Positions 1,246 through 49,557 of a DNA stretch of 64,000 nt are shown here, piece by piece (the first letter of the stretch is position 1; the number at the start of each line of letters is the position of its first letter). A program made the translations under genes and the position numbers. The notes below the pieces were generated by a model, which ran no database searches, had not been told where the DNA came from, and saw only the letters and a list, made by a program, of their open reading frames with translations. Source of the stretch: Umezawaea endophytica (GTDB lineage: Bacteria > Actinomycetota > Actinomycetes > Mycobacteriales > Pseudonocardiaceae); the NCBI RefSeq assembly GCF_025061645.1, contig NZ_JANYMP010000017.1, forward strand, positions 1 through 64,000. Reading direction: 5' to 3'.

Positions 1246-1321
1246 CCGGCCTGTCCACTGCCTGCCCGCGCGCGCCCGTCCACGCCAGGATGGATCGACA
1301 ACCCGCCGCCTGGGAGGACCC

Positions 1322-1606
1322 GTGAGACACCTGCACTGGCATTGGCCGCCCGGTATGCCGCAGACGTCGTCCGTCGTGCCCGTCCTGATCGTCATCGCGC
1401 TGCTCGTGGTGACGTGGGCCGTGCGCCACCACGCGCTCCTGCGCCTGTTCCAGGACCCCGAATCCCGACGCCGTCAGCCCGCCGAGCGCGTCAAGGTCCC
1501 CTCACCGTCCTTTTCGGACGAATCCTTGCGACTCCTGCTCGACCACGACGCGACCACCACCACGACCAGGCAGAGCCAGGCGAACCAGTCGCCCCAACGG
1601 GCGTAG
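1322..1606 (+). CDS. Small single-pass membrane protein, hypothetical
   Basis: A 94-residue ORF starting at GTG 1322 behind a good Shine-Dalgarno sequence (GGGAGGA, about 1311-1317). Residues 17-35 or so (SVVPVLIVIALLVVTWAV) form one hydrophobic helix, followed by a basic, polar tail. I recognise no family. Its last 133 bases run antisense to the 3' end of the Lnt-like gene, so the tail sequence may be constrained by the other strand or the real protein may differ. The ribosome-binding site and the helix are the main support. Confidence 0.5.
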   Translation: MRHLHWHWPPGMPQTSSVVPVLIVIALLVVTWAVRHHALLRLFQDPESRRRQPAERVKVPSPSFSDESLRLLLDHDATTTTTRQSQANQSPQRA

Positions 1607-2898
1607 GGCGTTGGGCCGTCCGCCACCGGCAGGGTCCCGCTCACCGCGGTGAACGGCGTCGCGGAACCGGTCGCGGCCTGCGCCACCACGCGGCCGGTGT
1701 GGTCGCTGAGGGTCAGGTAGCCCAACCGCGCCGCGCGGGCCACGGAGAAGCCGCTCTCGACCCCGCGCAGCGCCTGCACCCTGCTCTGCGACCACGCGTC
1801 GACGGTGAAGTCCAGTGCGGGGACCAGGAGCAGCCCCGCCCCCGCCCGGCCGTAGGCCCGGCCGAACTCCGGGTGGCCGAGGTCGGCGCAGATCGCGATG
1901 CCGACGCGGCCGTCCGGCGCGAACGCCAGATCGGTGCCCGCCGTGAGCGCGTCCTCCAGGCCGGGCACCAGGTGGTGCTTGCGGTAGACCACCGTGCGCT
2001 TCGATAGGTGGTACGCGGCGTTGTGGGTCCGCTCCCCCGTCGTCACCGTCACACCGACCACCAGGTCGACCCCCCTGGTGCGAGCGGCCTCCACCAACGG
2101 GTCGATCAACGCGGGCAGGGTCGCCTCGTCGGCCCGGAACCCCTTCTCCGGCAGCACCACGATCCGCGTCCCGTCGTCCGGCGCCGTGCGCAGCCAGTCG
2201 ACGTACGCGGCCACCAGGTCACGACCCGCCCGCGTGTCGACGCGCACCTCGTCGCGGTCCGTGCGGGCCGAGAGCAGCGTGATCCTCGGCGACGACCGTT
2301 CGTCCACTGTGGCCAGTCGCAGCGCGCCGAGGCCGACCGCGAGCCCCACCACCAGGAATCCGGCGGCGGCGACGCGAGGACGGGCCACCGCGAGTGCCGC
2401 GGGCAGCGAGGAGACCAGGAAGCTGACACCCCAGCCACCGGTGACCGCGGCGACCTGGAGCACCGGCAGCAGGTCGGACTGCGTGGGCGCCAGGCTCCAG
2501 TTCGCCCCGGCCGGGGTGGCGAGGCAGACCAGGTACTCGGCGGCGGCGATGCCCGCCGGGAACGCCACCGCCGCGAGCAGCGCTTGGCCCCGCAGCAGGA
2601 CGGCACGGAAGAGCAGCACCACACCGGTGAGCAGCAGCGGGAACAGCAGGACCGGGATCGCCAGCAGAGGCACCGGCAGTTCGAGGTCGACGGCGTAGTA
2701 GCGCCACGTGTTCGCGCCGCCCAACGAGTACGCGGCGAACGCCGCCACCGCGGCCGAGCGGGCCGGTACCCGTGAGGCGAGCAGGAGGATCGGCAGCGGG
2801 GCCAGCCAGGTCAGCCACGGGACGGGCGTGAGGCCGGTGCCGAAGAAGTACAGCGCGGCGGTGGCCAGTACCGCGGAGGCGCTACGCGCGAACGCCAT
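1474..2898 (-). CDS. lnt: Apolipoprotein N-acyltransferase-like protein
   Basis: 474 residues. The first 195 or so are mostly hydrophobic membrane helices. Then comes a carbon-nitrogen hydrolase (nitrilase-fold) domain, and a final helix (about 435-455). The catalytic triad is intact: Glu251 (LPEKGF), Lys307 (YRKHH) and Cys337 (AICADLGHPE). The family transfers an acyl chain to the N-terminal cysteine of lipoproteins at the outer face of the membrane. The domain is more divergent than housekeeping Lnt, so another membrane amidase or acyltransferase role is possible. It overlaps the upstream TetR gene by 17 bases, so they are co-transcribed. It contains a one-mismatch copy of the GTCCACWGTGGAC palindrome. 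Confidence 0.8.
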   Translation of the reverse strand: MAFARSASAVLATAALYFFGTGLTPVPWLTWLAPLPILLLASRVPARSAAVAAFAAYSLGGANTWRYYAVDLELPVPLLAIPVLLFPLLLTGVVLLFRAVLLRGQALLAAVAFPAGIAAAEYLVCLATPAGANWSLAPTQSDLLPVLQVAAVTGGWGVSFLVSSLPAALAVARPRVAAAGFLVVGLAVGLGALRLATVDERSSPRITLLSARTDRDEVRVDTRAGRDLVAAYVDWLRTAPDDGTRIVVLPEKGFRADEATLPALIDPLVEAARTRGVDLVVGVTVTTGERTHNAAYHLSKRTVVYRKHHLVPGLEDALTAGTDLAFAPDGRVGIAICADLGHPEFGRAYGRAGAGLLLVPALDFTVDAWSQSRVQALRGVESGFSVARAARLGYLTLSDHTGRVVAQAATGSATPFTAVSGTLPVADGPTPYARWGDWFAWLCLVVVVVASWSSRSRKDSSEKDGEGTLTRSAG

Positions 2899-3454
2899 CG
2901 AGGACCCTCTCCAGCGCGGTCCGGCACAGCGCGCGGAACTCGGCCTCGGGCGCCGTCAACCGCCCGCCCGCGTGGAGCTGGACCAGGCCGTGCAGCGTGG
3001 CCGAGATGACCAGCGCCAACTCCCACACGTCGTCCTGGCGCAGGATCCCGACGCGCATCCCCGAGGTGAGGGCGTCGGCGAGCACGGACAACGTCGGCGA
3101 GGCGCTCGCGTCGTCCGGGAACCTCCGCGCCCCGGCGCGCTGCTCGGTGAACAGGAACGTGTACAGGTGCGGCTGCCCGAGGGCGAAGTCCAGGTACAGG
3201 TCCAGTGCCTCGTCGAGCTGCCGGTGGAAGTCGGCCGACCAGTCGCGCTCGCCCCAGGTGCGGGCCAGCGCGGCGAAGCTGGTCGCGGCCACCGAGTCGA
3301 GGAGGTCCTCCCGGCTGGGGAAGTGCCGGTAGATCGCCATCGGGGTGAGGCCCGCGAGGGTGGCGACCCGCCGCATGGTGACGGCGGCCGACCCCTCGGC
3401 GAGCAGGAGGTCGTGGGCTATCGCGGCGATGCGCTCGCCGGTGACTGATGCCAT
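2882..3454 (-). CDS. TetR-family repressor
   Basis: About 190 residues. The N-terminal helix-turn-helix (RIAAIAHDLLLAEGSAAVTM, then RRVATLAGLTPMAIYRHFPS) is typical of TetR proteins; the C-terminal part is a helical ligand and dimerisation domain (TetR_C-like). The start could be ATG 3454 or ATG 3472, and neither has a Shine-Dalgarno sequence. An inverted repeat at 3454-3491 covers both starts, so the gene is probably autorepressed. It sits 43 bases after the methyltransferase and overlaps the Lnt-like gene, so one transcript could carry all three. Confidence 0.85.
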   Translation of the reverse strand: MASVTGERIAAIAHDLLLAEGSAAVTMRRVATLAGLTPMAIYRHFPSREDLLDSVAATSFAALARTWGERDWSADFHRQLDEALDLYLDFALGQPHLYTFLFTEQRAGARRFPDDASASPTLSVLADALTSGMRVGILRQDDVWELALVISATLHGLVQLHAGGRLTAPEAEFRALCRTALERVLDGVRA

Positions 3455-3491
3455 GTATACACCGTAGACCACGTTGTGTACGGCGTATACA
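3454..3491. promoter_or_regulatory. Probable TetR operator (13-bp inverted repeat)
   Basis: TGTATACACCGTA at 3454-3466 and TACGGCGTATACA at 3479-3491 form 13-bp arms with one mismatch and a 12-base spacer. They lie between the methyltransferase stop and the TetR coding start and overlap both candidate TetR start codons. Placement and symmetry suggest an autoregulatory operator; binding is inferred. Confidence 0.6.
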
Positions 3492-3497
3492 ACGAAT

Positions 3498-4247
3498 TCA
3501 GCCGAGTTTCGTCGCGGTGAGTTGGAACTGCCTGGCGAGGTGCGGGTACGGCGGTCGGGCGGTAACCGCGAGTTCCAGCCGTTCCAGGTCGGCGAAGAAC
3601 GCCGGATCGGCCTTCGACTGGTCGTCCGCGATGTAGTCGCAGAACGCGCGGATGCCGTAGTGGCCGGTCACGGCGCAGCCGAGCGCGGCCAGCCGGTCGC
3701 CGACGTCCTCGGCGGTGTGCAGCGTCATCGTCGCGTCGAACGTGACCGAGCGCGCCTGGTCGGTCTCCAACGCCGTCAACGCCGCCACCGGATCGGTCTC
3801 CCGGATCGCGGCGAGCAGGGGCGCCGAGTGCTTGTTCACGGCCATGACCGACAGCAGCCCGCCGGTGCGCAGCGGCTCCAACGCGGAGGCGAGGCACGCG
3901 GTCGCGTCGCCCGCGTACTGGACCAGGTTGTGGCACAGCACCACGTCGAACCCGTCCAGGCCGTGGTCCGCGACGTCGGCCTCGACGAGCGCCACGGACA
4001 CGCCCGCGGCCTCGGCGTCCTCCTTCGCGGCGGCGAGCATCTCCGCGGACCGGTCGACGATCGTCACGTCGTGGCCCCGGCGGGCGAGCGGGACGGCGTC
4101 ACCACCGTCACCGCCAGCGAGGTCCAGCACCCGCAGCGGGTCCGGGCCGAGGTGGCGGGCGAGGTTGGCCTCGGCGAGCGTGTAGCGCAGGCGCCCCCAG
4201 GGGCTTTCGCGCCACTGCCGCCACGCGGTCATCGTGGAGTCCGACAT
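3498..4247 (-). CDS. Class I SAM-dependent methyltransferase
   Basis: About 249 residues. SAM-binding motif I is VLDLAGGDGGDAVPLA, followed by an acidic residue after the second strand (VTIVDRSAEML) and the post-motif VVLCHNLVQYA. The overall pattern fits Methyltransf_11/25 small-molecule methyltransferases of the Smt type. The substrate cannot be told. An in-frame ATG at 4373 gives a 42-residue low-complexity extension that looks like read-back into the upstream region, so ATG 4247 (MSDSTMTAWRQW) is chosen. It lies upstream of, and on the same strand as, the TetR and Lnt-like genes. Confidence 0.8.
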   Translation of the reverse strand: MSDSTMTAWRQWRESPWGRLRYTLAEANLARHLGPDPLRVLDLAGGDGGDAVPLARRGHDVTIVDRSAEMLAAAKEDAEAAGVSVALVEADVADHGLDGFDVVLCHNLVQYAGDATACLASALEPLRTGGLLSVMAVNKHSAPLLAAIRETDPVAALTALETDQARSVTFDATMTLHTAEDVGDRLAALGCAVTGHYGIRAFCDYIADDQSKADPAFFADLERLELAVTARPPYPHLARQFQLTATKLG

Positions 4248-4449
4248 GCCGCCGACGGTAGGCGAACGGCGTTCCCCGGTGCCGCGTGGAGCGCGCCACC
4301 GGCCGGTTCGAGGCGTCGTGGCTCGGGGCACGAAACCGGGTCGGCAGCGCACTTCACAGGCGCGTTCACGCACGTCAGAGGCGCTGTAACCCCCTGTCCG
4401 GCACGGGTGCGCAACCCGGTCGGGGCATGCGCCCGGCGATCTCGCTCGC

Positions 4450-4465
4450 TACCCTGGCCACTGTG
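4450..4465 (+). promoter_or_regulatory. -10 box of a leaderless STAS gene
   Basis: TACCCT at 4450-4455, then 7 bases, then the GTG start at 4463. The spacing puts the expected transcription start at or next to the start codon. Ten or more genes in this window have the same arrangement. Confidence 0.55.
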
Positions 4466-4807
4466 CAGAGTGCTACAGAAAGGGTTTTTTCCGTCCGCGT
4501 AGGGCAGGTCACCGGAGCCACGGTGGTGACCGTCGTCGGTGAGGTCGACCTCGACACCGCGCCTGAACTGGAGTTCCGCGTCACCCGCGCCGCCGCGGCG
4601 GCCGACCCGCTCGTCATCGACCTCAGCGGGGTCACGTTCTTCGCCTCGGCGGGCCTCGCGTGCCTGCTCACGGCGCACGGCCAGGGCCACCGGCCGCACC
4701 TCGTGCCGTCACCCGCGGTGGCGAAGGTGCTCGCCCTGTCCGACCTGGAGGACTTCCTCCCGCGCAGCGAGTCACTGGCGGACGCGCTGCGCCACCTCGC
4801 CCGCTAG
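4463..4807 (+). CDS. STAS-domain anti-sigma factor antagonist
   Basis: 114 residues forming a single STAS domain. VVGEVDLDTAPELE is the first conserved strand-helix, and LVIDLSGVTFFASAGLACLL holds the loop (FFASAG) with the serine that is phosphorylated in SpoIIAA/RsbV relatives. The family binds anti-sigma factors or kinases in a phosphorylation-dependent way. No partner anti-sigma gene is adjacent. The start is GTG 4463, which sits 7 bases after a TACCCT -10 box (4450-4455), so the transcript is probably leaderless; longer in-frame starts would run through this promoter. Confidence 0.8.
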   Translation: MQSATERVFSVRVGQVTGATVVTVVGEVDLDTAPELEFRVTRAAAAADPLVIDLSGVTFFASAGLACLLTAHGQGHRPHLVPSPAVAKVLALSDLEDFLPRSESLADALRHLAR

Positions 4808-4811
4808 CCCG

Positions 4812-5978
4812 TCACAGCGGGAGGGCCTGCGCGAAGTCCTCCCACACGTCCTCGGCGTCCTCGATGCCGACCGAGACCCGCACCGTGCCTTCGCCGATGC
4901 CCGCCGCGAGCAGGGCATCGGCGTCGAGCTGGCGGTGCGAGGAGCTCGCCGGGTGCACCAGGGTGGTCTCGACACCGCCGAGCGACACCGCGAGCTTCGC
5001 CAGCCTCACGCCCTTCGTGAACGCGTACCCGGCCTCCCGCCCTCCCGCGAGGTCGAAGACCAGCATGCCGCCGAAGTCCGACAGGTGACCGCGCGCCACC
5101 TCGTGGTCGGGGTGGCCCGGGTGGCCCGGCCAGCGCACCGACACGACCGAGGGGTGGGCGGCCAGGCGTTCGGCGAGGACGGCCGCGTTCGCGCAGTGCT
5201 GGCGCATCCGCAGCGGCAGCGTCTGGACGCCCCTGATCGTCAGCCAGGCGGCGAACGGGTCCGCCGCCGCCCCCAGTTCCATCGCGTGGTGCCACACCTC
5301 GCGGTAGCGCTGGTCCTCGGCGAACACCAGCGCGCCGCCCGTCACGTCGGAGTGCCCGCCGAGGTACTTCGTGGCCGAGTGCAGCACGACGTCCGCGCCG
5401 TGCTCGATCGGCCTGCACAGCAGCGGTGTCGCGAAGGTGTTGTCCACCACCGTCACCAGCCCCGCGGCGCGGCCCGCGGCGAGGAACGCGGGCAGGTCCA
5501 CGACCTTCGTCACCGGGTTCGCGATGGTCTCCAGGTACAACATCCTCGTGGACGGCCGGACCGCCGCCGCGACCTCGGCCGGGTCGTCGCCCGCGATGTA
5601 GGTGACGTCGACGCCGAAGCGGGCCGCGAGGTCGTTGAGCATCGCGTACGTGCCGCCGTACAGGCAGCTCTGGGCGATCACGTGGTCGCCCGAGCGCAGC
5701 GTGGACATCAGGACGGCGCTGATCGCGCCCATGCCGGACGCCGTGAACACCGCCGCCACCCCGCCTTCGAGGCGCGCCAGGTGGTCCTCCAGCGCGCGGA
5801 CCGTCGGGTTGGCGTAGCGGCTGTAGACGAACCCGCTGTCCGGTGATTCGAGGGCTTCCGCGAGCGCGTCCGGGTCGTCGAAGGCGAAGTTCGAGGCCTG
5901 GTAGATCGGGACGCTGATCGACCGGGAGTTCGGCAGCGTCGGCACTGGCACGTGGACGGCACGGGTGGAAGGGCGCAT
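4812..5978 (-). CDS. Cys/Met-metabolism PLP enzyme (gamma-lyase/synthase type)
   Basis: 388 residues covering the whole Cys/Met metabolism PLP-dependent family. Visible landmarks are the N-terminal YSRYANPTVRALE substrate and cofactor loop, TASGMGAISAVL, the aspartate in VVDNTFATPLL and the PLP-lysine in HSATKYLGGHSDVTGG. Close relatives include cystathionine gamma-synthase and gamma-lyase, methionine gamma-lyase and O-acylhomoserine sulfhydrylase; sequence alone does not decide between them. It is divergent from a MocR regulator 62 bases away, and that pairing usually means the regulator controls the enzyme. Confidence 0.85.
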   Translation of the reverse strand: MRPSTRAVHVPVPTLPNSRSISVPIYQASNFAFDDPDALAEALESPDSGFVYSRYANPTVRALEDHLARLEGGVAAVFTASGMGAISAVLMSTLRSGDHVIAQSCLYGGTYAMLNDLAARFGVDVTYIAGDDPAEVAAAVRPSTRMLYLETIANPVTKVVDLPAFLAAGRAAGLVTVVDNTFATPLLCRPIEHGADVVLHSATKYLGGHSDVTGGALVFAEDQRYREVWHHAMELGAAADPFAAWLTIRGVQTLPLRMRQHCANAAVLAERLAAHPSVVSVRWPGHPGHPDHEVARGHLSDFGGMLVFDLAGGREAGYAFTKGVRLAKLAVSLGGVETTLVHPASSSHRQLDADALLAAGIGEGTVRVSVGIEDAEDVWEDFAQALPL

Positions 5979-6017
5979 GACCGCCAGTTTTGGGTGTCAC
6001 GACGTCCTCCGACAGCG

Positions 6018-6036
6018 CCAATTCCGGCTAAATTGG
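6018..6036. promoter_or_regulatory. MocR promoter with overlapping inverted repeat
   Basis: CCAATT (6018-6023) and AATTGG (6031-6036) are perfect 6-bp arms with a 7-base spacer. They overlap TAAATT (6029-6034), a -10 box placed 6 bases before the MocR GTG start, so the gene looks leaderless. A MocR dimer bound here would affect both divergent promoters; this is inferred from position. Confidence 0.5.
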
Positions 6037-6040
6037 TCCG

Positions 6041-7492
6041 GTGACAGAGCCAATACCGTGGTCGGTCGACCGCCTGGTCGCCCAACTCGGCCGCTGGTCG
6101 GTCAGCCGCGGTCCGCTGTACCTGCTGCTCGCCGAACGCCTGCGCCAGCTCATCGACTCGGGCCAGCTACCGCCGCGGGCCGCGCTGCCGCCGGACCGCG
6201 TGCTCGCGGGCAGGCTCGCGGTCGGCCGCACGACGGTCGTCGCCGCGTACGACCGGCTGCGCCAGGAGCGCAAGCTGGAACGGCACCAGGGCCGCGGCAC
6301 GTGGGTCGCGCCCGCGGTGCTGGCCGGTCCGTGGCCGGGGGCGCTGCCGTTGGCGAACCCGCTGTTCGTCAACTACCTGGAACCGGTGGCGGGCGTGATC
6401 CCGTTGGCGTGCACCGCCCCGCACGGTCCGCCGCCGGAGCTGACCGAGGCGTTCGGGCGCGCGGTGGCGCGCCTGCCGGGCCAGGACGGCGGCGACATCG
6501 GCTACCACCCGACGGGCCACCCCGAACTCCGGTCCGCGCTGGCCGAGCGCTACACCTCGCGCGGGATCCCGACCGCGCCGGAGCAGATCCTGGTGACCAC
6601 GGGCGGCCAGCAGGCGCTCGCGCTGCTCACCCGGCTGTTCGTCGCCCCCGGCGACACCGTGCTGGTGCAGGGGCCGACCTACCCCGGCGCGCTGGAGCTG
6701 TTCCGGGACGCCGCCGCGGTGCTCACGGCACTGCCCGGCGACGACGTCGCGGCGTGGACGACCGCGCTGGCCGACCGGCCCCGGCTCGCCTACCTGAACC
6801 CGACGAACCACAACCCGACCGGCGCCACCACGTCCGCGCTGGTCCGGCGCAGGCTGGTGGAGGTCGCGGTGGCGCACGGGGTTCCGCTGGTCGACGACGA
6901 GGTGCTCGCCGGGCTGTCGTTCGACGGGTCGCTCCCGCCGGGGCTGGCGGCGTTCGGACCGGCGCTCACCGTCGGGTCGTTCAGCAAGTCGGTGTGGGGC
7001 GGGCTGCGCACCGGCTGGATCCGCGCGTCCGAGGGCGAGATCGCCCAACTCGCCAGGATCAAGGCGATCCAGGACCTGGGCAGCCCGGTCCTGGAGCAGC
7101 TCGCGGCCGTCGAACTGCTGCCGGTGCTGGACGACGTGACCCGGCGCCGGGGCGCGGAATTGGCGCGGCGGCACGAAGTCCTGTGCGCCGCGCTCGCGGA
7201 ATCGTTGCCCTCGTGGGACTTCCGCCGCGCCGACGGCGGTCAGTGCCTGTGGGTGCGGCTGCCCTCCGGTGACGCGTCGGCGTTCGCCCAGGTGGCGCTC
7301 CGGCACGGTGTGGCCGTGCTGCCGGGCGCCGCGCTGGACGCCGCGGGTGGCGGTACCGACCGGCTGCGAATCCCGTTCACCTCACCACAGGAGGAGGTCA
7401 CCGACGCCGTCGAGCGGCTCGCGCTGGCGTGGAACGCCTACCAGCGCGCGGACCGCCCCGCTCCGGCGTCGGTCCACGCGATCGTCGTGTGA
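6041..7492 (+). CDS. MocR/GntR-type regulator with aminotransferase domain
   Basis: 483 residues. The N-terminal winged helix (GPLYLLLAERLRQLIDSGQL, then LPPDRVLAGRLAVGRTTVVA) is GntR-like. From about residue 110 it has a class I aminotransferase fold, with the PLP-lysine in GSFSKSVWGGLRTGWIR. Such proteins sense PLP or amino compounds and rarely act as enzymes. The GTG start at 6041 follows a -10 box by 6 bases. It is divergent from the Cys/Met PLP enzyme, its most likely target. Confidence 0.88.
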   Translation: MTEPIPWSVDRLVAQLGRWSVSRGPLYLLLAERLRQLIDSGQLPPRAALPPDRVLAGRLAVGRTTVVAAYDRLRQERKLERHQGRGTWVAPAVLAGPWPGALPLANPLFVNYLEPVAGVIPLACTAPHGPPPELTEAFGRAVARLPGQDGGDIGYHPTGHPELRSALAERYTSRGIPTAPEQILVTTGGQQALALLTRLFVAPGDTVLVQGPTYPGALELFRDAAAVLTALPGDDVAAWTTALADRPRLAYLNPTNHNPTGATTSALVRRRLVEVAVAHGVPLVDDEVLAGLSFDGSLPPGLAAFGPALTVGSFSKSVWGGLRTGWIRASEGEIAQLARIKAIQDLGSPVLEQLAAVELLPVLDDVTRRRGAELARRHEVLCAALAESLPSWDFRRADGGQCLWVRLPSGDASAFAQVALRHGVAVLPGAALDAAGGGTDRLRIPFTSPQEEVTDAVERLALAWNAYQRADRPAPASVHAIVV

Positions 7493-7551
7493 CCGGCGAG
7501 CGCTGGTACCGTTCCACCGTCAGCAGCACCGACCTAGGAGGTGGGAACCCC

Positions 7552-7599
7552 ATGACCGCTCGTCCAGGTCGGGTGCTCGCCCACCGCGCGGTCCGCTAG
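7552..7599 (+). CDS. Possible 15-residue leader peptide
   Basis: MTARPGRVLAHRAVR, starting at ATG 7552 behind a textbook Shine-Dalgarno sequence (AGGAGGTG, 7536-7543) and ending at TAG 7599. Five of 15 residues are arginine or histidine. It lies 47 bases upstream of the PrmC-like methyltransferase. The ribosome-binding site is much better than that of the gene it precedes. Its stop codon sits in the loop of a hairpin, as expected of a translational attenuator. Confidence 0.5.
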   Translation: MTARPGRVLAHRAVR

Positions 7600-7632
7600 A
7601 CCGCGGGAGAGCGCCCGTTCGGCACCCCCGAA
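7587..7632 (+). promoter_or_regulatory. Hairpins between leader ORF and methyltransferase gene
   Basis: CGCGGTC (7587-7593) pairs with GACCGCG (7599-7605) around the leader ORF stop codon. TTCGG (7618-7622) pairs with CCGAA (7628-7632), and the second arm overlaps AAAGG (7631-7635), the only Shine-Dalgarno-like bases before ATG 7647. A ribosome stalled on the leader ORF could change this folding. Attenuation is an inference. Confidence 0.4.
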
Positions 7633-7646
7633 AGGCACGTCTCCCC

Positions 7647-8417
7647 ATGGTTCCACCGCTTTCCGCCATCATCGCCCGCCTGCGCGCCGTCGGCTGCGTG
7701 TTCGCCGAGGACGAGGCCCGCCTGCTCGTCGACGCGGCCGGGTCACCCGCCGAGCTCGACGCGATGGTCGCCCGCCGCGTCGAGGGCCTCCCGCTGGAGC
7801 ACGTGCTCGGCTGGGCGGAGTTCTGCGGCCTGCGCGTCCTGGTCGACCCCGGCGTCTTCGTCCCCCGGCGGCGCACCGAGTTCCTGGCGCGGCGGGCGGC
7901 GTCCCTCGCGCGGCCCGGCTCCGTTGTCGTGGACCTGTGCTGCGGATCGGGCGCGGTCGGCGCGGTGGTCGCCTCACTGGTCGAGGGCGTCGACCTGTTC
8001 GCCGCCGACATCGACCCCGCCGCCGTCCGGTGCGCTCGCCGCAACATCCCCGGCGACCAGGTGTACGAGGGTGACCTGTACGCGCCGCTGCCGCTGGGGC
8101 TGCGCGGCCGGATCGACGTGCTCGTGGCCAACACGCCGTACGTGCCGACCGGGGCCATCGGCACGATGCCGCCGGAGGCCCGTGACCACGAGCCGCTGGT
8201 GGCGCTGGACGGCGGCGGTGACGGCCTGGACGTCCAGCGGCGCGTGGCCGCGGACGCCCCGAAGTGGCTCGCGCCCGGCGGACACCTGCTCGTGGAGACC
8301 GGTGAACGGCAGGCGCCGCACGCCGCCGAAGTGTTCGCCAGGTCCGGTTTGGAACCGCGGGTGGTGTCGTCGGAGGAACTGGACGCGACCGTCGTGATCG
8401 GCGTCAGGCCCGTCTGA
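7647..8417 (+). CDS. PrmC/HemK-like protein N5-glutamine methyltransferase paralogue
   Basis: 256 residues with the two-part PrmC layout: an N-terminal helical domain with GLPLEHVLGWAEFCGLRVLV, then a SAM domain with VVDLCCGSGAVGAVVA. The catalytic NPPY motif of release-factor methyltransferases is NTPY here (LVANTPYVPTGAIG). This matches a known subgroup annotated as putative protein-(glutamine-N5) methyltransferase of unknown substrate. It is therefore probably not the housekeeping PrmC. A leader peptide and hairpins upstream suggest translational control. Confidence 0.82.
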   Translation: MVPPLSAIIARLRAVGCVFAEDEARLLVDAAGSPAELDAMVARRVEGLPLEHVLGWAEFCGLRVLVDPGVFVPRRRTEFLARRAASLARPGSVVVDLCCGSGAVGAVVASLVEGVDLFAADIDPAAVRCARRNIPGDQVYEGDLYAPLPLGLRGRIDVLVANTPYVPTGAIGTMPPEARDHEPLVALDGGGDGLDVQRRVAADAPKWLAPGGHLLVETGERQAPHAAEVFARSGLEPRVVSSEELDATVVIGVRPV

Positions 8418-8666
8418 TCTAATTGTGGCGAACGTCATTCCACCTATTGTTGCATCGGCAATTGCTCGGCCGTTCGATCCGAGCTGATGCACGCACCGAT
8501 GCACGTGCACTCTGCACGTGCGTAAGCCTTTGACCTGCAATGATGCCATTCCGCACTATTCGGTCTCAATAGCATTCGGCCGCTTGCCGAGATCCGCCAA
8601 CCGCTCGGCGACAGACCCCCATCCCCCGATGGATTTCCCCGGACGGAGTGCGGCACCATTGGCACC
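8418..8666. other. Intergenic region with tandem GCACGTGC palindromes
   Basis: No convincing gene. The region is less GC-rich than its surroundings. It holds two copies of the palindrome GCACGTGC at 8501-8508 and 8514-8521, 13 bases apart, preceded by GATGCAC repeats. It probably contains the promoter of the downstream small membrane protein; CACCAT lies 7 bases before its ATG. Confidence 0.4.
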
Positions 8667-8999
8667 ATGATCGATCGGGAACCGTTGTCGAGCGACCTCG
8701 GCGATTTGCGCAACGACCCCGTGCGGCCTGTGCGGAAGACCATCACCCTGCACGACCGCGGCGTGGCGGCGCCCAGGTCGGTCGCGCTGCTGCCCACCCC
8801 GGCGCCCGCGCCGGTCCGGCCGCCGGAGCCGGAGGTGCGGACCCGCTGGCGCGTCACCCCGCGGGTCGTCGGCGTGCTCGTCCTGTTCGGCGGCCTCGCC
8901 GCGGTGATCGTGACCGCTTTCGGCGTGAGCGGAGTGCTGATGCTCATCGGCCTCTGCGTCGCGCTTCGATTGATGTGGACCGACAGGGCAGGTCGGTAG
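8667..8999 (+). CDS. Small membrane protein, hypothetical
   Basis: 110 residues. A polar, proline-rich N-terminal half (APAPVRPPEPEVRTRW) is followed by two closely spaced hydrophobic segments (VVGVLVLFGGLAAVIVTAFG and VLMLIGLCVALRLMW). I recognise no family. A perfect terminator hairpin begins 10 bases after the stop, which supports a real transcription unit. There is no Shine-Dalgarno sequence, and the start may be leaderless. Confidence 0.6.
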   Translation: MIDREPLSSDLGDLRNDPVRPVRKTITLHDRGVAAPRSVALLPTPAPAPVRPPEPEVRTRWRVTPRVVGVLVLFGGLAAVIVTAFGVSGVLMLIGLCVALRLMWTDRAGR

Positions 9000-9008
9000 C
9001 ACGTCACC

Positions 9009-9045
9009 CGGAAGCCGCGTCCACGGTTCGTGGACGCGGCTTCCG
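9009..9045 (+). terminator. Strong terminator hairpin
   Basis: A 17-bp perfect stem (arms 9009-9025 and 9029-9045, core GGAAGCCGCGTCCACG) with a 3-base loop, directly after the small membrane protein gene and before the redox operon. Confidence 0.85.
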
Positions 9046-9131
9046 CTTGTACGCGGCTCACAAGGAACGCACAGCCCTCTCCCAGGAACCCCGTCGACCA
9101 TCGGGGTGGACCAGGAGAGGACACGCCAGCG

Positions 9132-9398
9132 ATGAACGACACCCAAGCCAGGATCGGCCGTCGTGCCGAGGGGAACCGCCGGGTCGGCCGGGCGACCGCG
9201 TGGACAGCCGCCGCCTGCACCGCGCTCGCGACCCTGTTCGGCGTCGTGTTCGCCACGGGCACGACGGACGCCCAGTCGGACACCGGGACGAGCACGTCGA
9301 CGGGATCGTCCACTGACGGCGGCGATTCCCTGCAAGCCCCCGATTCCGCCCCGGAGCAGGGGTCGGGCAGTGCGCACACCGGGTCCGGTGGGTCGTGA
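9132..9398 (+). CDS. Small membrane-anchored protein with Ser/Thr/Gly-rich tail
   Basis: 88 residues: a short basic cytoplasmic part, one membrane helix (about 22-42, TAWTAAACTALATLFGVVFA) and a low-complexity tail rich in Ser, Thr, Gly and Asp. ATG 9132 follows GGAGAGGA. Its stop overlaps the GTG of apbE by 4 bases, so translation is coupled. In similar actinomycete loci the first gene often encodes an FMN-binding protein flavinylated by ApbE, but this protein is too short for that domain and shows no [ST]GA[ST]xT motif. It may anchor or replace the acceptor; function unknown. Confidence 0.65.
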   Translation: MNDTQARIGRRAEGNRRVGRATAWTAAACTALATLFGVVFATGTTDAQSDTGTSTSTGSSTDGGDSLQAPDSAPEQGSGSAHTGSGGS

Positions 9399-10300
9399 CG
9401 CACGTCGTGGAGTTCCCCGTGTGGGGCACGACGGCCGTGCTCGCCGTCACCGACCACCCGGTCGAGGCCGAACGGCTGCTGCGGGCCGTGCTGGACGACG
9501 TCGACCAGGCGTGCAACCGCTTCCGGGCCGACTCGGAGCTGTCGAGGCTGCCGTCCGGACGCGCTGTGCCGATCGGGCCGGTGCTCGCCGAAGCCCTCAC
9601 CGTCGCGCTGCGCGCCGCGCGGCTCACCGACGGGCTCGTCGACCCGACGGTCGGCGGCGCGATCCGGGCGCTCGGCTACGACCGGGACTTCGCCGCGATC
9701 GTGGACGGACCCCTGGTCCCCCAACGGGTTCCGGGCTGGCACCGGGTCCTGCTCGACGCGGACCGCGGTGAAGTCCTGCTGCCCCATGGGATCGAGGTGG
9801 ACCTCGGCGCGACGGCCAAGGCGCTGGCCGCGGATCGGGCGGCCCGCGCCATCTCCGTGATGGTCGGCTGCGGGGTGCTGGTGTCGCTCGGCGGCGACGT
9901 CGCCGTGGCGGGCGAGACGCCCGCGGGCGGGTGGCGGGTCGCGATCGGCGACGACCACCGGACCGCCGTCGCCGATCCCCAGACCGTGGTCGCGGTCCGG
10001 CGCGGCGGACTGGCGACGTCGAGCACCACGCGGCGGACCTGGCTGCGTGACGGCGTTCCGCAGCACCACATCGTCGACCCGCGCACCGGACTGGCCGCCG
10101 ACGTCGTGTGGCGGACCGCCACCGTCGCCGCTGGCACGTGCGTGGACGCGAACACCGCCGCCACGGCCGCGATCGTCCTGGGCCACGACGCTCCCGAGTG
10201 GTTGGCCGCGCGCGGTCTGCCCGCCCGGCTGGTGTCGGCGGCGGGTGCCGTGCTCGCGGTCGGCGGCTGGCCCGCCGACCGGGAACGGCAGGCGGCGTGA
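9395..10300 (+). CDS. apbE: FAD:protein FMN transferase (ApbE)
   Basis: 301 residues. The family attaches FMN covalently to threonine in target proteins outside the cytoplasmic membrane, using FAD and Mg2+. Recognisable pieces are the Gly/Lys segment VDLGATAKALAADRA, the HHIVDPRTG motif and the metal-side segment VDANTAATAA. No signal peptide is visible, as in many actinomycete ApbE proteins. It starts at GTG 9395, coupled to the preceding gene, and its TGA overlaps the next ATG. Neighbours are a heme membrane protein, a NuoF-like protein and a ferredoxin, pointing to an electron-transfer chain across the membrane. Confidence 0.9.
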   Translation: MTHVVEFPVWGTTAVLAVTDHPVEAERLLRAVLDDVDQACNRFRADSELSRLPSGRAVPIGPVLAEALTVALRAARLTDGLVDPTVGGAIRALGYDRDFAAIVDGPLVPQRVPGWHRVLLDADRGEVLLPHGIEVDLGATAKALAADRAARAISVMVGCGVLVSLGGDVAVAGETPAGGWRVAIGDDHRTAVADPQTVVAVRRGGLATSSTTRRTWLRDGVPQHHIVDPRTGLAADVVWRTATVAAGTCVDANTAATAAIVLGHDAPEWLAARGLPARLVSAAGAVLAVGGWPADRERQAA

Positions 10301-43289: not shown

Positions 43290-45212
43290 TCACGAACCGG
43301 CCGTCCGGGCCAGGCGGAACGTGAAGTCGAGGTGGCGCCACTCCCCCTCGACGGTCCTGCCGTCCGGGGTCGCGCCCGTGGCGGGGCGGAAGTCGACGAC
43401 CAGCTCCTCCTTGACGCCGAAGACGGTGTCGGAGTCGAGGTAGTCGCCGCCCGCCACGAAGAGCTGGGTGATCAGGCGCTCGTGGCCGGGGGCGGTGATC
43501 ATGAAGTGCACGTGCGGCGCGCGGTACTGGTGGCGGCCGGTCGCGGCGAGCAGCTCGCCGACCGGGCCGTCGTCCGGGATCGGGTACGCCGACGGCAGGA
43601 TCGACCAGAACGTGAAGCGCCCGTTGGCGTCCGTGGTGAACCGGGCGCGCAGCACCGGGCCGTCCAGGTCGGGTAGCTGGATGTCGTAGAAGCCGTTGTC
43701 GTCGGCCTGCCACACGTCGACGACCGCGCCCTCCAGCGGCAGCCCGTCCGGGTCGGTCACGTGGACGTCCGCCCACAGCGGGACACCGGTGAGCCCGGCG
43801 GCGAGGTCGGTGCCGGACGGCACGGCGGGCGGACCGTCCACGTAGAACGGACCCAGCACGGCCGACGGGGTCGAGTCCGGGGTGCGCGAGTTGGTCAGGG
43901 CGTCGACGACGCTGGAGAGGCCGAGCGTGTCGGACAGCAGCACGAACTCCTGGCGCACGGCGCTGCTGATCTGCCCGGTGCGGGTGAGGAAGTCGACGGC
44001 GCGCTGCCACTCCGGCTGCGTCAGGTCGTTCTCGGTGGCGTAGGAGTGCAGGCGCCGCACCAGGTCCTCCAGCAGCAGGCGCGTCCGCCTGCTCGGCGCG
44101 CGGTCGAAGCTCGCCACGACGTCGGCGGTCAACCAGGACAGGTCCGGGACGCGGCTCGCGGGGCGCTTGCCGTGCCACGCGTTCGCCAGCAGTCCGGCGA
44201 CGCCCTCGGACGTCACCTCGCGCGGGTTCGGGTACGAGCGCGAGGTGGCCAGCTCGACGGCGAGCGGCACGTCCTCCAGCGGGAAGTCCAGTGACCGCAA
44301 CGAGGTGGGGCCGCCTGCCTCGACGATCAGGTCGTACACGCCCGCGGGGGCTTCCGGCACCCCCATGGCCCTCGCGATCCTCTCCATCACCTCGGGTGCC
44401 GCCGGGGCGTTGTACGCCATGGCGTGCGGGAGGACGACGGTGTGCGTCTCGGCGTGCGGCAGGCCGAACGAGCCGCCGAGGGTGTGGCACAGCTTGTGGT
44501 GCAGGCTCATGCCGACCGAGCCGAGGCAGGTGCCCGCGAGCCACGCGCCGGTCAGCAGGTCCGCGCGGGTGTCCACATCGGACGGGTTGGCGGACAGCGC
44601 CCTGAGGCCGCGGGAGATGCGGGTGATCGCGTCCAGCGCGATGGCGTCGGTGACGGGCTCGGCCTGCGGCGAGTACAGCGCCTCGACGGCGTGCGCGAGC
44701 GCGTTGACCCCGCTGGTGACCGACAGCGCCACCGGCAGGCCCAGGGTGAGGTCGACGTCGTAGACGACGGTCTCCGGGCGGATCTCCGGGGCGGCCCTCG
44801 TGGTCTTGCGCCCGTCCTGGGTCTCGCCGAGGACGGCCGTCACCTCGGAGCCCGAGTACGTCGTCGGCACGATCACCTGCGGCACGTTCGTCCGCGCGGC
44901 CAGCGCCTTGGACAGGCCCGTGGTGGAGCCGCCGCCGATGGCGACCACGCAGTCGGCGCTGTTCGAGCGCAGCACCTCCAGCGCGCGCTCAGTCACCTCC
45001 ACCGGCGTGTGCATCACGGCGCCGTCGAACCGCGCCGCGAGCGACGGGCCGAGTGAGTCCCCGACCCGCCGCGCGACGTCGTCCAGCCGCTTGCTCGCCA
45101 GCAGGAGCACGCGGTTGCCGCCGACCCGTTCCACCTCGGCCCGCACCTGCGAGATGGTGCCGGAGCCGAAGACGATCCTGGTCGAGCGGACTTCGTGGAC
45201 GAAAGGCTTCAT
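43290..45212 (-). CDS. Maleylacetate reductase-hydroxyquinol 1,2-dioxygenase fusion
   Basis: 640 residues holding two enzymes. Residues 1-365 or so are an iron-alcohol-dehydrogenase-like maleylacetate reductase, with the NAD motif AIGGGSTTGLSKALA and LHHKLCHTLGGSFGLPHAETH. Residues 366-640 are an intradiol dioxygenase: an N-terminal dimer domain, then GPFYVDGPP and the Fe(III) ligands Tyr509 (GFYD), Tyr563, His567 and His569 (HQYRAPHVHF). The dioxygenase opens hydroxyquinol to maleylacetate, which the reductase converts to 3-oxoadipate, so the product of one is the substrate of the other. The start overlaps the upstream reductase stop (ATGA). Confidence 0.9.
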   Translation of the reverse strand: MKPFVHEVRSTRIVFGSGTISQVRAEVERVGGNRVLLLASKRLDDVARRVGDSLGPSLAARFDGAVMHTPVEVTERALEVLRSNSADCVVAIGGGSTTGLSKALAARTNVPQVIVPTTYSGSEVTAVLGETQDGRKTTRAAPEIRPETVVYDVDLTLGLPVALSVTSGVNALAHAVEALYSPQAEPVTDAIALDAITRISRGLRALSANPSDVDTRADLLTGAWLAGTCLGSVGMSLHHKLCHTLGGSFGLPHAETHTVVLPHAMAYNAPAAPEVMERIARAMGVPEAPAGVYDLIVEAGGPTSLRSLDFPLEDVPLAVELATSRSYPNPREVTSEGVAGLLANAWHGKRPASRVPDLSWLTADVVASFDRAPSRRTRLLLEDLVRRLHSYATENDLTQPEWQRAVDFLTRTGQISSAVRQEFVLLSDTLGLSSVVDALTNSRTPDSTPSAVLGPFYVDGPPAVPSGTDLAAGLTGVPLWADVHVTDPDGLPLEGAVVDVWQADDNGFYDIQLPDLDGPVLRARFTTDANGRFTFWSILPSAYPIPDDGPVGELLAATGRHQYRAPHVHFMITAPGHERLITQLFVAGGDYLDSDTVFGVKEELVVDFRPATGATPDGRTVEGEWRHLDFTFRLARTAGS

Positions 45213-46021: not shown

Positions 46022-46618
46022 GTGGTCCGGACGGTGGCGCACTTACCCGAGCCCTGCGACCCCGGCCTCGACCCGGAGGTCGTGCGGCGGGCGGTCCGCG
46101 GTGACACCGTGGCAACGCGACTCCTGTTGGAATCGGTCCGGCCCGTCGTGATCCGCTACTGCCGGGCGAGGGTCGGGCGCCACGAGCGCACGTTCGGGTC
46201 GGCGGACGACGTGGCCCAGGACGTCTGCCTCGCCGTGCTGACCGCGCTGCCGACGTTCCGGGACCAGGGCAGGCCGTTCCTGGCGTTCGTGTTCGGCATC
46301 GCCGCGCACAAGGTCGCCGACGCCCACCGCGCGTCGGCGAAGAACCGCGCCGAGCCGATGTCCGAACTGCCCGAGGTCCAGGAGACGGCCGCGGGGCCGG
46401 AGGAGCGGGCGGTGCTCGACGACCTGTCCACTCGAATGGGTGGATTGCTGCGGACGCTCCCGGACCGCCAGAGGGAGATACTGGTACTCCGCGTAGTACT
46501 CGGTCTGTCGGCCGACGAGGCGGCAGAGGCGATCGGGTCCACCGCCGGTGCCATTCGGGTGGCGCAGCACCGTGCCCTGACCCACCTGCGCAAGGCCGTG
46601 GGTGCTTCGGGCCGTTAG
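46022..46618 (+). CDS. ECF-type sigma factor (SigD/ShbA-like)
   Basis: About 198 residues. Region 2 is RYCRARVGRHERTFGSADDV followed by AQDVCLAVLTALPTFRDQGR and PFLAFVFGIAAHKVADAHR; region 4 is LPDRQREILVLRVVLGLSAD and IGSTAGAIRVAQHRALTHLR. This resembles SigD/ShbA-type ECF factors of actinomycetes. GTG 46022 follows AGGA by 5 bases; GTG 46034 is an alternative. A TTA codon lies near the start (46043-46045), hinting at bldA-type control. No anti-sigma gene is adjacent. Confidence 0.85.
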   Translation: MVRTVAHLPEPCDPGLDPEVVRRAVRGDTVATRLLLESVRPVVIRYCRARVGRHERTFGSADDVAQDVCLAVLTALPTFRDQGRPFLAFVFGIAAHKVADAHRASAKNRAEPMSELPEVQETAAGPEERAVLDDLSTRMGGLLRTLPDRQREILVLRVVLGLSADEAAEAIGSTAGAIRVAQHRALTHLRKAVGASGR

Positions 46619-47021: not shown

Positions 47022-48113
47022 ATGGCTTCCCAGGCAGCGATCGGCTTCACGCGCGGCGCCCCCTCGTTGGACATCATCGACACCGAAGGTCTGGTCGAGG
47101 CGACCCAGCTCGCCTTCGCCGACGACGCCGCGGGCACGACCGCGTACGGCACCGCCGTGGGTTACGTGCCGCTGCGGAAGTGGATCGCCGAGCAGCACGG
47201 CGTCCCCGTCGAGCAGGTGCTGGTCACCAACGGCTCGATGCAGGCGGACGCGTTCCTGTTCGAGCAGCTCGTCTCCCCCGGTGACGCCGTCATCGTCGAG
47301 GCGCCGACCTACGACCGCACCCTCCTGAACCTCCGCCAGCGCGGCGCCGAGGTTCACCCGATCGCGCTGCACGAGGACGGCATCGACGTCGACGCGGTCG
47401 AGGCCCTGCTGGAGAGCGGCGTGCGGCCGAAGCTCGCGCACATCATCCCCAACTTCCAGAACCCGGCCGGGTACACGCTGAGCGCGCCCAAGCGGGCCCG
47501 CCTGCTGGAGCTGGCCGCGAAGTACGACTTCGTCCTGTTCGAGGACGACCCGTACTACTCGATCCGCTTCGAGGGCGAGCAGATGCCCACGATGCTGTCG
47601 CAGGACAAGGCGGACAAGGTCGTCTACGCGTCCTCGTTCTCCAAGACCGTGTGCCCCGGCATCCGGGTCGGCTACCTCGTCGGACCGGTGTCGGTCATCG
47701 AGGGCATCACCAAGATCGCGACCACGACCTACATCTCCCCCAACATGGTCGCGCAGTCGATCGTGAACCAGTTCTGCCGGTCCGGTCGCCTCGACAAGTC
47801 GATCGACACGGTCCGCGCGGCGCTGCGGGAGCGCAAGGACGCGCTCGTCACGGCCCTCGCCCGCGAGCTGCCGGAGGCCGAGTACACCGCCCCGCAGGGC
47901 GGCTACTTCATGTGGGTCCGGCTGCCCGGCGTGTCCATCGACGCGCTCGCGGTCAAGGCCGCCGAGCACGGCGTCGCGTTCGTCAAGGGCGCGGACTTCC
48001 TGCTCGACGGCGGCGAGGACTCGGTGCGCCTGGCGTTCTCGGGTCTGTCCGCGAGCGAGATCGACGAGGGCGTCGTCCGCCTCGCGGCGGCTGTGCGCGC
48101 GCTCGACGCGTGA
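47022..48113 (+). CDS. PLP-dependent aminotransferase, class I/II
   Basis: 363 residues with an aminotransferase fold and no DNA-binding domain. The PLP-lysine is in ASSFSKTVCPGIRVGYLVG; NFQNPAGYTLS and the aspartate in VLFEDDPYYSIRFEGEQ are cofactor contacts. It is closest in style to 2-aminoadipate or MocR-related aminotransferases. ATG 47022 is 7 bases after TAGGCT (47009-47014), a leaderless start. It heads an overlapping operon with FchA and a FolD-like protein, suggesting a one-carbon or amino-acid link. Confidence 0.87.
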   Translation: MASQAAIGFTRGAPSLDIIDTEGLVEATQLAFADDAAGTTAYGTAVGYVPLRKWIAEQHGVPVEQVLVTNGSMQADAFLFEQLVSPGDAVIVEAPTYDRTLLNLRQRGAEVHPIALHEDGIDVDAVEALLESGVRPKLAHIIPNFQNPAGYTLSAPKRARLLELAAKYDFVLFEDDPYYSIRFEGEQMPTMLSQDKADKVVYASSFSKTVCPGIRVGYLVGPVSVIEGITKIATTTYISPNMVAQSIVNQFCRSGRLDKSIDTVRAALRERKDALVTALARELPEAEYTAPQGGYFMWVRLPGVSIDALAVKAAEHGVAFVKGADFLLDGGEDSVRLAFSGLSASEIDEGVVRLAAAVRALDA

Positions 48114-48682
48114 TGCGTGACCAGCCCGTAGGGGAGTTCCTGGAGCAGTTGGCGGCGCGGGTGTCCGCGCCGGGTGGCGGGGCGACCGCCGCCCTGCACG
48201 CCGCGCAGTCCGCGGCGCTGCTGGGCATGGTCGCCCGCTACAGCGACGGGCCGAAGTACGCCGAGCACTCCGTGACCATCTCGTCCGTGCTGGCCGAGGT
48301 GGACGTCCTGCGGGTCGAGGCGCTCCAGTTGGCGGACGACGACGCGCGGGCGTTCACCGCGGTGACGGACGCGTACCGGCTGCCGAAGGGCCCGGAGCGG
48401 TCCGCGGCCATCGCGGAAGCGCTTGCGGGGGCGGCGGTCCCGCCCTCGCGGACCATCGCCGTCGCCGAGCGGCTGGTCGCGCTGGCCGAGGCGCTGCTGC
48501 CCGTCGGCAACCGCAACGTGATCACCGACGTGGCCGCGGCGGCGGACGCCGCCCGTGCCGCGGCGACCACGGCGCGGGTCAACGTGGAGATCAACGGCGC
48601 CGCCGTGGTGTCCGATGTAGACGCACTGGTCGCACGAGCGGACCAGGTGACCGCAAGCGTTCGCGAGGAGATCAGCAAGTGA
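48113..48682 (+). CDS. FchA-type methenyl-THF cyclohydrolase
   Basis: 189 residues matching the formiminotransferase-cyclodeaminase C-terminal family (FTCD_C). Landmarks are the N-terminal LAARVSAPGGGATAALHAAQ, the middle DDARAFTAVTDAYRLP and the C-terminal VEINGAAVVSD. Stand-alone members such as FchA hydrolyse 5,10-methenyl-THF to 10-formyl-THF. Its ATG overlaps the aminotransferase stop by one base and its stop overlaps the FolD-like start by four. Confidence 0.85.
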   Translation: MRDQPVGEFLEQLAARVSAPGGGATAALHAAQSAALLGMVARYSDGPKYAEHSVTISSVLAEVDVLRVEALQLADDDARAFTAVTDAYRLPKGPERSAAIAEALAGAAVPPSRTIAVAERLVALAEALLPVGNRNVITDVAAAADAARAAATTARVNVEINGAAVVSDVDALVARADQVTASVREEISK

Positions 48683-49557
48683 TCACGCTGTCCGGCAAGG
48701 AATTCGCCGCGACGATTCGCGAGGACGTGACCGAGCGGGCGGCCAAGCTGGCCGTCGACGGCACTCCCCCACGACTGGCCGTCGTGACGGCGACCGACGA
48801 CGAGGCCAGCGCCTGGTACGTCCGGTCGATCGCCAAGGCCGCCGACAAGGTCGGCATCGCCTGCGACGTCGTCGACCTCGGGTCCACCGCCACCGGACCC
48901 GACGTCGTCGAGGCGTTGACGTCCCTGAGCGCGGACGGCGCCGTGCACGGCGTCATCCTCCAGACACCGCTGCCCGACGGGTTGTCGGTCGCGGAGCTGG
49001 CCGGGAACATCGCCGTCCGCAAGGACGTGGACGGCTCGAACCCGACGTCGCTCGGCAGGCTCGCCGCCGGGCTGCCCGCGTTCGCGCCCGCGACCGCGGC
49101 GGCCGTCGTGGCGCTGCTGGAGCACCACGAGGTGCCCCTGGAGGGCAAGCACGTGGTCGTGGTCGGCCGGTCGGTCGTCGTCGGCAAGCCCGTCGCGCAC
49201 CTGCTGCTCGACCGGAACGCCACCGTGACGGTCTGCCACTCGCGGACCGCCGACCTGGCCGCCGTCACGACCACCGGTGACGTGCTGGTCGCGGCCGTCG
49301 GCAAGGCGGGCCTGATCAAGGCCGAGCACGTCGCCGAGGGCGCGGTCGTGGTCGACGTGGGCACGAACGCCACCGCCGACGGCGGGCTGGTCGGGGACGT
49401 GGACCCCGAGGTCGCCGAGAAGGCGGGCTCGTTGACCCCCGTGCCCGGTGGTGTCGGCCCGGTGACCACCGCGCTGCTGCTGCGGCACACCGTCGAGGCC
49501 GCCGAGACGGCGCACACCGTGCCCGGTCGACGTCGGCAGCCGAGCTGGCGCCGCTGA
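48679..49557 (+). CDS. FolD-like methylene-THF dehydrogenase, cyclohydrolase Lys lost
   Basis: 292 residues with the two FolD domains. Conserved parts are Tyr47 (ASAWYVRS), Gln95 (LQTPLP), KDVDG (115-119), GRSVVVGKP and the NADP-side PVPGGVGPVT. The lysine that follows Tyr by four residues in FolD (YVASK in E. coli), needed for cyclohydrolase activity, is Ile51 here, and the HPYN segment after KDVDG is altered to NPTS. The protein may keep only dehydrogenase activity, with the adjacent FchA supplying the second step. GTG 48679 is coupled to the FchA stop. Confidence 0.88.
   Translation: MITLSGKEFAATIREDVTERAAKLAVDGTPPRLAVVTATDDEASAWYVRSIAKAADKVGIACDVVDLGSTATGPDVVEALTSLSADGAVHGVILQTPLPDGLSVAELAGNIAVRKDVDGSNPTSLGRLAAGLPAFAPATAAAVVALLEHHEVPLEGKHVVVVGRSVVVGKPVAHLLLDRNATVTVCHSRTADLAAVTTTGDVLVAAVGKAGLIKAEHVAEGAVVVDVGTNATADGGLVGDVDPEVAEKAGSLTPVPGGVGPVTTALLLRHTVEAAETAHTVPGRRRQPSWRR

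Follow-up and report, generated by a model that had tools for sequence, protein, structure and literature searches.

A question raised by the 64,000-nucleotide stretch of Umezawaea endophytica contig NZ_JANYMP010000017.1 analysed here (the window) is what a FolD-family protein does once it has lost the lysine used in the cyclohydrolase half of its activity. The protein, here called FolD2, has 292 residues, is read from a GTG start (48679–49557, + strand) and matches PF00763 and PF02882. Directly upstream lies the gene for a predicted FchA-type methenyl-tetrahydrofolate (methenyl-THF) cyclohydrolase of the FTCD_C family (PF04961; 189 aa; 48113–48682, + strand); the two genes overlap by four bases (GTGA), an arrangement in which the coordinates agree with a preliminary description of this DNA. 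Very probably, on the comparisons given below, FolD2 and FchA represent a split version of the bifunctional FolD. With its substrate and cofactor motifs intact, FolD2 would use NADP+ to oxidize 5,10-methylene-THF to 5,10-methenyl-THF and, judging by published Escherichia coli mutants, would not carry out the cyclohydrolase step, its acid/base lysine now being isoleucine or leucine; FchA, to go by its family and fold, would hydrolyze methenyl-THF to 10-formyl-THF.

The motif region of FolD2 reads A-W-Y47-V-R-S-I51-A-K53. In three alignments to solved FolDs, I51 (codon ATC, 48829–48831, + strand) falls at the position of the catalytic lysine, which is Lys54 in E. coli FolD and Lys56 in the human enzyme, and K53 lies two residues further on; the Campylobacter FolD 3p2o possesses an extra lysine at the K53 position besides the catalytic one. 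The motifs Q95, K115-D-V-D-G119 and GRSVVVGKP are unchanged, and the preliminary description, in stating that the YxxxK lysine had given way to Ile51 with the other FolD motifs kept, had read the sequence exactly. Both Pfam domains score above the curated cut-off (PF00763, 95.6 bits; PF02882, 195.4 bits). The AlphaFold model (pLDDT 92.7) shows a normal FolD fold, the 50 best PDB matches listed being FolD or MTHFD proteins with a best TM score of 0.92. None of the NCBIfam FolD models is passed among the 25 of 30 listed (best 277.6 bits against a cut-off of 421). An MtdA-type N-terminal domain, MtdA presumably having a Pfam domain of its own, was not matched; the protein matches just the two FolD Pfam families. 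Two structure papers, in their available parts, assign the lysine the role of acid/base in the cyclohydrolase step (PMC3368264, PMC3338484), and one of the two gives the key human residues as Tyr52, Lys56, Gln100, Leu101, Asp125, Gly273 and Gly276, of which FolD2 alters Lys56 and, judged by motif, Leu101. The protein is thus predicted to be a monofunctional NADP-dependent methylene-THF dehydrogenase, in which the dehydrogenase activity would be retained.

The distribution of FolD2 was surveyed within the actinobacteria in two sets of genomes. The first comprises 249 genomes of the host's family, which were searched with the FolD-like protein; the second, or named, set consists of the best 80 of 567 relatives from a collection of 84,980 species' genomes and includes Streptomyces, Nonomuraea, Nocardia, Glycomyces, Arthrobacter, Geodermatophilus, Amycolatopsis, Frankia, and others. 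The sets overlap at least in G045 = G304, G178 = G294 and G019 = G315, which have identical coordinates. The family search yielded two classes separated by a gap, namely 63 genomes (the window's own included) at 286.7 bits or more and at least 59% identity, and the ordinary FolDs at no more than 220.6 bits. The label FolD2 was given to proteins at least 52% identical to that of the window, and residue 51 was not used for the assignment.

At the lysine position all 80 named loci have Ile (56) or Leu (24), and 118 distinct FolD2 proteins, a set from which identical sequences were removed and the window's own kept, have Ile in 92 cases and Leu in 26; in ordinary FolDs the position is Lys in every one of 59 distinct sequences. 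A change found in every one of the 80 loci and 118 distinct proteins rules out chance or sequencing error. Chance or decay is likewise rejected by the constancy of residue 51 taken with dN/dS (the ratio of nonsynonymous to synonymous substitution rates), which at 0.17–0.20 for FolD2 and FchA in three genomes of the window's genus indicates that both genes are under purifying selection there. Into the alignment went 193 loci; two with a short aligned span, L010 (FolD2 split in frame) and L142 (an ordinary FolD with Lys), gave no row. Across its 130 FolD2 rows, which include repeats from the same genome, Tyr47, Gln95, Asp116, Asp118 and Gly258 are invariant, and the position of human Leu101, judged by motif, is Thr in 115 of the 118 distinct proteins. 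In a tree of 60 FolD2 and 59 ordinary rows a single branch parts the two groups, with a Shimodaira–Hasegawa-like approximate likelihood ratio test (SH-aLRT) value of 100, or 99 when column 51 is left out; both trees were built by a quick method, with long-branch warnings for some rows.

The second line of evidence is the company that FolD2 keeps. In the family set, 62 of the 63 FolD2-bearing genomes have FchA directly upstream in the same orientation, the two matches lying −1 to 275 bases apart (FchA rows being taken down to E 1e-23); the remaining one is a draft in which FchA is on a different contig. In the named set FchA is found no more than 1.2 kb upstream in 60 of the 80 loci, while 15 have it at some other place in the locus and five lack it there; all 20 loci without a close upstream FchA are from Nocardia, and the five lacking it in the locus have an FTCD_C gene elsewhere in the genome. 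The genome comparison, through residue 51 and this linkage, therefore supports the division of labor between the two proteins that had been proposed. Judged from gene content, FolD2 depends on FchA, but an FchA-like protein can occur without FolD2. The upstream protein itself scores 140.8 bits against PF04961, where the cut-off is 24.5, and its form in the window's genus falls 17 residues short of most relatives (189 vs 206 aa), with gaps in the middle of the protein and near the C-terminus. At E < 1e-30, FchA without FolD2 occurs in eight family genomes, G081 being among them through a FolD2 split in frame; the FchA-like genes standing without FolD2 are those of G016, G043, G086, G097, G124, G202 and G220.

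That the pair works in place of the bifunctional FolD is best supported by genomes in which FolD2 is the only FolD. Seventeen family genomes were picked for a single FolD-type match at 1e-40, and ten more were added for comparison. FolD2 proved to be the sole PF00763 protein in 16 of the 63 family genomes, the 17th candidate (G157) also having an ordinary FolD. Three of the 16 (G085, G182 and G230) are single contigs that are 99–100% complete. In this family set no match to Fhs was found in 15 of the 16, G103 having one. In the named set, from which 49 of the 80 loci were taken for the search, FolD2 stands alone in 19 of the 49 genomes, and an FTCD_C gene is present in all 19. With FolD2 as the sole FolD and no Fhs, FolD2 and FchA are probably what supplies such genomes with 10-formyl-THF for purines and formylmethionine, unless spontaneous hydrolysis suffices. 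A single genus code accounts for nine of the 16, and the FolD2 proteins of these nine are 96–99% identical to that of Amycolatopsis orientalis. Seven genomes of the same Amycolatopsis-like code are without FolD2; the six of these that were examined carry ordinary Lys-bearing FolDs, and three (G170, G193 and G222) still have a weaker FchA-like match.

The window's own genome (11.0 Mb) presents a different case, having two PF00763 genes, FolD2 and an ordinary FolD with SYVKGK. The latter, which is adjoined by a DUF3017 gene, passes the NCBIfam model for bifunctional FolD (NF010789) with 467.6 bits against a cut-off of 401. The expectation that a second, normal FolD would exist elsewhere thus holds for this genome and fails as a general rule, given the genomes in which the lysine-less FolD is alone. 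There is one FTCD_C (PF04961) gene and one PurU above the cut-off; no PF01268 match was found in the genome, which rules out formate assimilation via Fhs. Here, then, an ordinary FolD is present and FolD2–FchA is accessory to it. A probable choline/betaine breakdown locus, recognized by Pfam matches and not linked to FolD2, occupies positions 518–9656 of locus L121 on contig 26 and encodes a GMC oxidoreductase, an aldehyde dehydrogenase, a ferredoxin-reductase-like protein, an IclR regulator, a dimethylglycine-oxidase-type protein, and a DAO protein. In view of this unlinked choline/dimethylglycine-type locus and of the PurU the accessory pair probably serves methyl oxidation, and would oxidize methylene-THF coming from methyl-group breakdown.

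The neighbors of the pair in other genomes fit such a setting. A dimethylglycine-oxidase-type gene, whose representative combines DAO, FAO_M and GCV_T domains, lies near the pair in 14 of the 80 named loci, 13 of which have PurU as well; some of these loci also contain a serine dehydratase or a molybdopterin oxidoreductase. The sequence of steps would run from the methyl group to methylene-THF, then to methenyl-THF (FolD2), formyl-THF (FchA), formate (PurU), and finally CO2. Neighbor clusters were named from one representative each, and among the 20 representatives annotated many FolD2–FchA pairs, for example in Nonomuraea, Glycomyces and Nocardia, have no one-carbon gene.

Several observations weigh against a simple split of functions. 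The FchA-type protein reaches only 104.6 bits with the NCBIfam FchA equivalog, whose cut-off is 275 bits, and by sequence alone a cyclodeaminase activity is therefore possible. The tie between the genes runs one way: of the 249 genomes in the family set, 119 have an FchA-like match (E ≤ 0.001), and 56 of these are without FolD2. Plasmid pYJN5-2 of Paenarthrobacter sp. YJN-5 carries a lysine-less FolD (L119, 5989–6870; YVRSIER) that is annotated as bifunctional, and no FchA was detected on this plasmid. Two of the genomes with FolD2 alone (G137 and G201) are drafts that are 87% complete. On the biochemical side, E. coli FolD K54N keeps about 19% of its dehydrogenase activity, with undetectable cyclohydrolase and very slow growth, according to the available text of PMC5688156; the lysine hence aids the dehydrogenase step too, and FolD2 must compensate somehow. 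The same text notes that methenyl-THF can hydrolyze spontaneously (PMC5688156), from which it follows that FchA need not be essential.

A first alternative, which we consider very unlikely, is that FolD2 retains both activities, with some other residue or a water network standing in for the lysine, and that FchA merely raises the flux. Spontaneous hydrolysis and a weak residual activity would be compatible with it, as would the survival, at slow growth, of E. coli K54N strains in the portion of the report available (PMC5688156). One possible stand-in, Lys53, had been named in advance as a residue that might fill the site; the comparison shows it to be no substitute. Column 53 is variable in the 130 FolD2 rows (Lys 59, Arg 58, other 13), and in ordinary FolDs, which have the catalytic Lys as well, it is mostly Arg, Asn, Lys or Ala, so that a basic residue is common at this position in either group. 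A lysine relocated elsewhere is rejected as well, no newly conserved Lys column being present in the 118 distinct proteins: Lys exceeds 60% of FolD2 in columns 115 and 170 alone, both of which are already Lys or Arg in ordinary FolDs. A fully bifunctional FolD2 would also leave the near-constant adjoining FchA unexplained.

Little probability attaches to a second alternative, in which the FTCD_C protein would act as a formimino-THF cyclodeaminase, feeding methenyl-THF to a FolD2 working in the reductive direction, the loss of the cyclohydrolase serving to protect the intermediate. The FTCD_C family does include cyclodeaminases, and the score below the NCBIfam cut-off would suit one. A profile of 29 FchA relatives, however, scores 196 bits on the Methylobacterium cyclohydrolase 7vg4 as against 131 on the cyclodeaminase 1o5h and 131 on FTCD, and 7vg4 is also the best Foldseek match of the FchA structure model. 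The PurU neighbors in 13 of the 80 loci imply that formyl-THF is made there, and the FolD2-only genomes without Fhs need some source of 10-formyl-THF.

The third alternative concerns the gene that heads the probable three-gene operon, a class I/II aminotransferase (PF00155; 47022–48113, + strand), which the preliminary description had thought might define a special one-carbon route; in this reading the route would be linked to amino acids, with FchA–FolD2 as its second half. It overlaps FchA by one base (FchA in turn overlapping FolD2 by four), it may be co-transcribed with the pair, and this gene order is kept in all three genomes of the window's genus that were examined; the route is still hardly credible, as the gene is a neighbor in this genus only, being absent from the 27 other family loci (L007–L033, 1.5 kb flanks) and, at >50% identity, from the 80 named loci, and its orthologues (60–76% identity; 6 of 60 genomes searched, in six other genera) have no FchA or FolD2 within 1.5 kb. 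The Pfam assignments of six genes flanking these orthologues reveal no common theme. The aminotransferase is rejected as a member of the route and probably has no share in the folate function.

A separation of dehydrogenase from cyclohydrolase is already known. In Clostridium perfringens, FolD, although annotated as bifunctional, is reportedly a dehydrogenase only, with FchA giving the cyclohydrolase (Aluri, Sah, Miryala and Varshney, 2016). That organism is a Firmicute which has Fhs too, whereas the actinobacterial group is marked by the change of Lys to Ile or Leu, by gene coupling, and by genomes without Fhs or another FolD; the comparison is with the clostridial FolD as described. Methylobacterium possesses a separate methylene-THF dehydrogenase, MtdA, of a family other than FolD. 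The FTCD_C cyclohydrolase is shared with its MtdA–Fch system, the window FchA being closest to 7vg4; the dehydrogenase differs, since the only Pfam families matched by that of the window are the two of FolD.

The division is also known from one Arthrobacter cluster (PMC5023230). Arthrobacter sp. 31Y has a FolD2-Mch-PurU cluster, comprising a second FolD and a separate methenyl-THF cyclohydrolase, which is discussed as dissimilatory and, compared by its description rather than its sequence, resembles the Arthrobacter loci found here; the account deals with one strain, and its parts covered here are silent on the catalytic lysine, on the spread of such genes, and on replacement of the normal FolD (PMC5023230). 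The nicotine plasmid pAO1 contains a mabO-folD-purU operon, in which folD accompanies an N-demethylating oxidase and purU, its FolD being called bifunctional in the available part of the source (PMC6214936). By description alone it is likened to pYJN5-2, another Paenarthrobacter plasmid with a lysine-less FolD. No title or abstract was found on a lysine-less actinobacterial FolD clade or on its replacing FolD, in a search for which the subscription literature was mostly out of reach. Apparently unreported before are the actinobacterial group without the lysine, the FchA that almost always accompanies it, and the genomes in which this group supplies the only FolD.

Many soil actinobacteria have kept a lysine-less FolD beside a separate cyclohydrolase, a pair which in some species seems to be the only route to a purine building block. 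Such FolDs are likely annotated as bifunctional, as was seen for pYJN5-2; Ile or Leu at the lysine site together with a nearby FchA offers a sequence test for a monofunctional FolD. The Amycolatopsis-like genus, with its ordinary-FolD genomes and its FolD2–FchA genomes, represents a natural experiment: close relatives should depend on FchA to different degrees, and FolD should not be an equally good drug target in all of them. Carolacton, a product of the myxobacterium Sorangium cellulosum, forms a hydrogen bond with Lys54 of E. coli FolD and does not inhibit the activity left in K54N, as stated in the accessible text of PMC5688156. By analogy, FolD2 might have spread as an escape from natural antibiotics that grip this lysine, an idea we hold to be unlikely. 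If it were true, FolD2 with FchA would amount to a naturally insensitive FolD, first present as a second copy and then as the sole one in some Amycolatopsis, Nocardia, Glycomyces and Frankia.

Two further features of the window lie upstream of the operon. A sigma factor matching NCBIfam ShbA (46034–46618, + strand) is located two genes 5′ of the aminotransferase, a position that it also occupies in the other two genomes of the genus. On the opposite strand (43290–45212, −), one frame of 640 aa joins, according to Pfam, an iron-containing alcohol dehydrogenase to a catechol-type intradiol dioxygenase; the former half appears to be of the maleylacetate-reductase type, and the fusion is one protein with two steps of aromatic ring breakdown.

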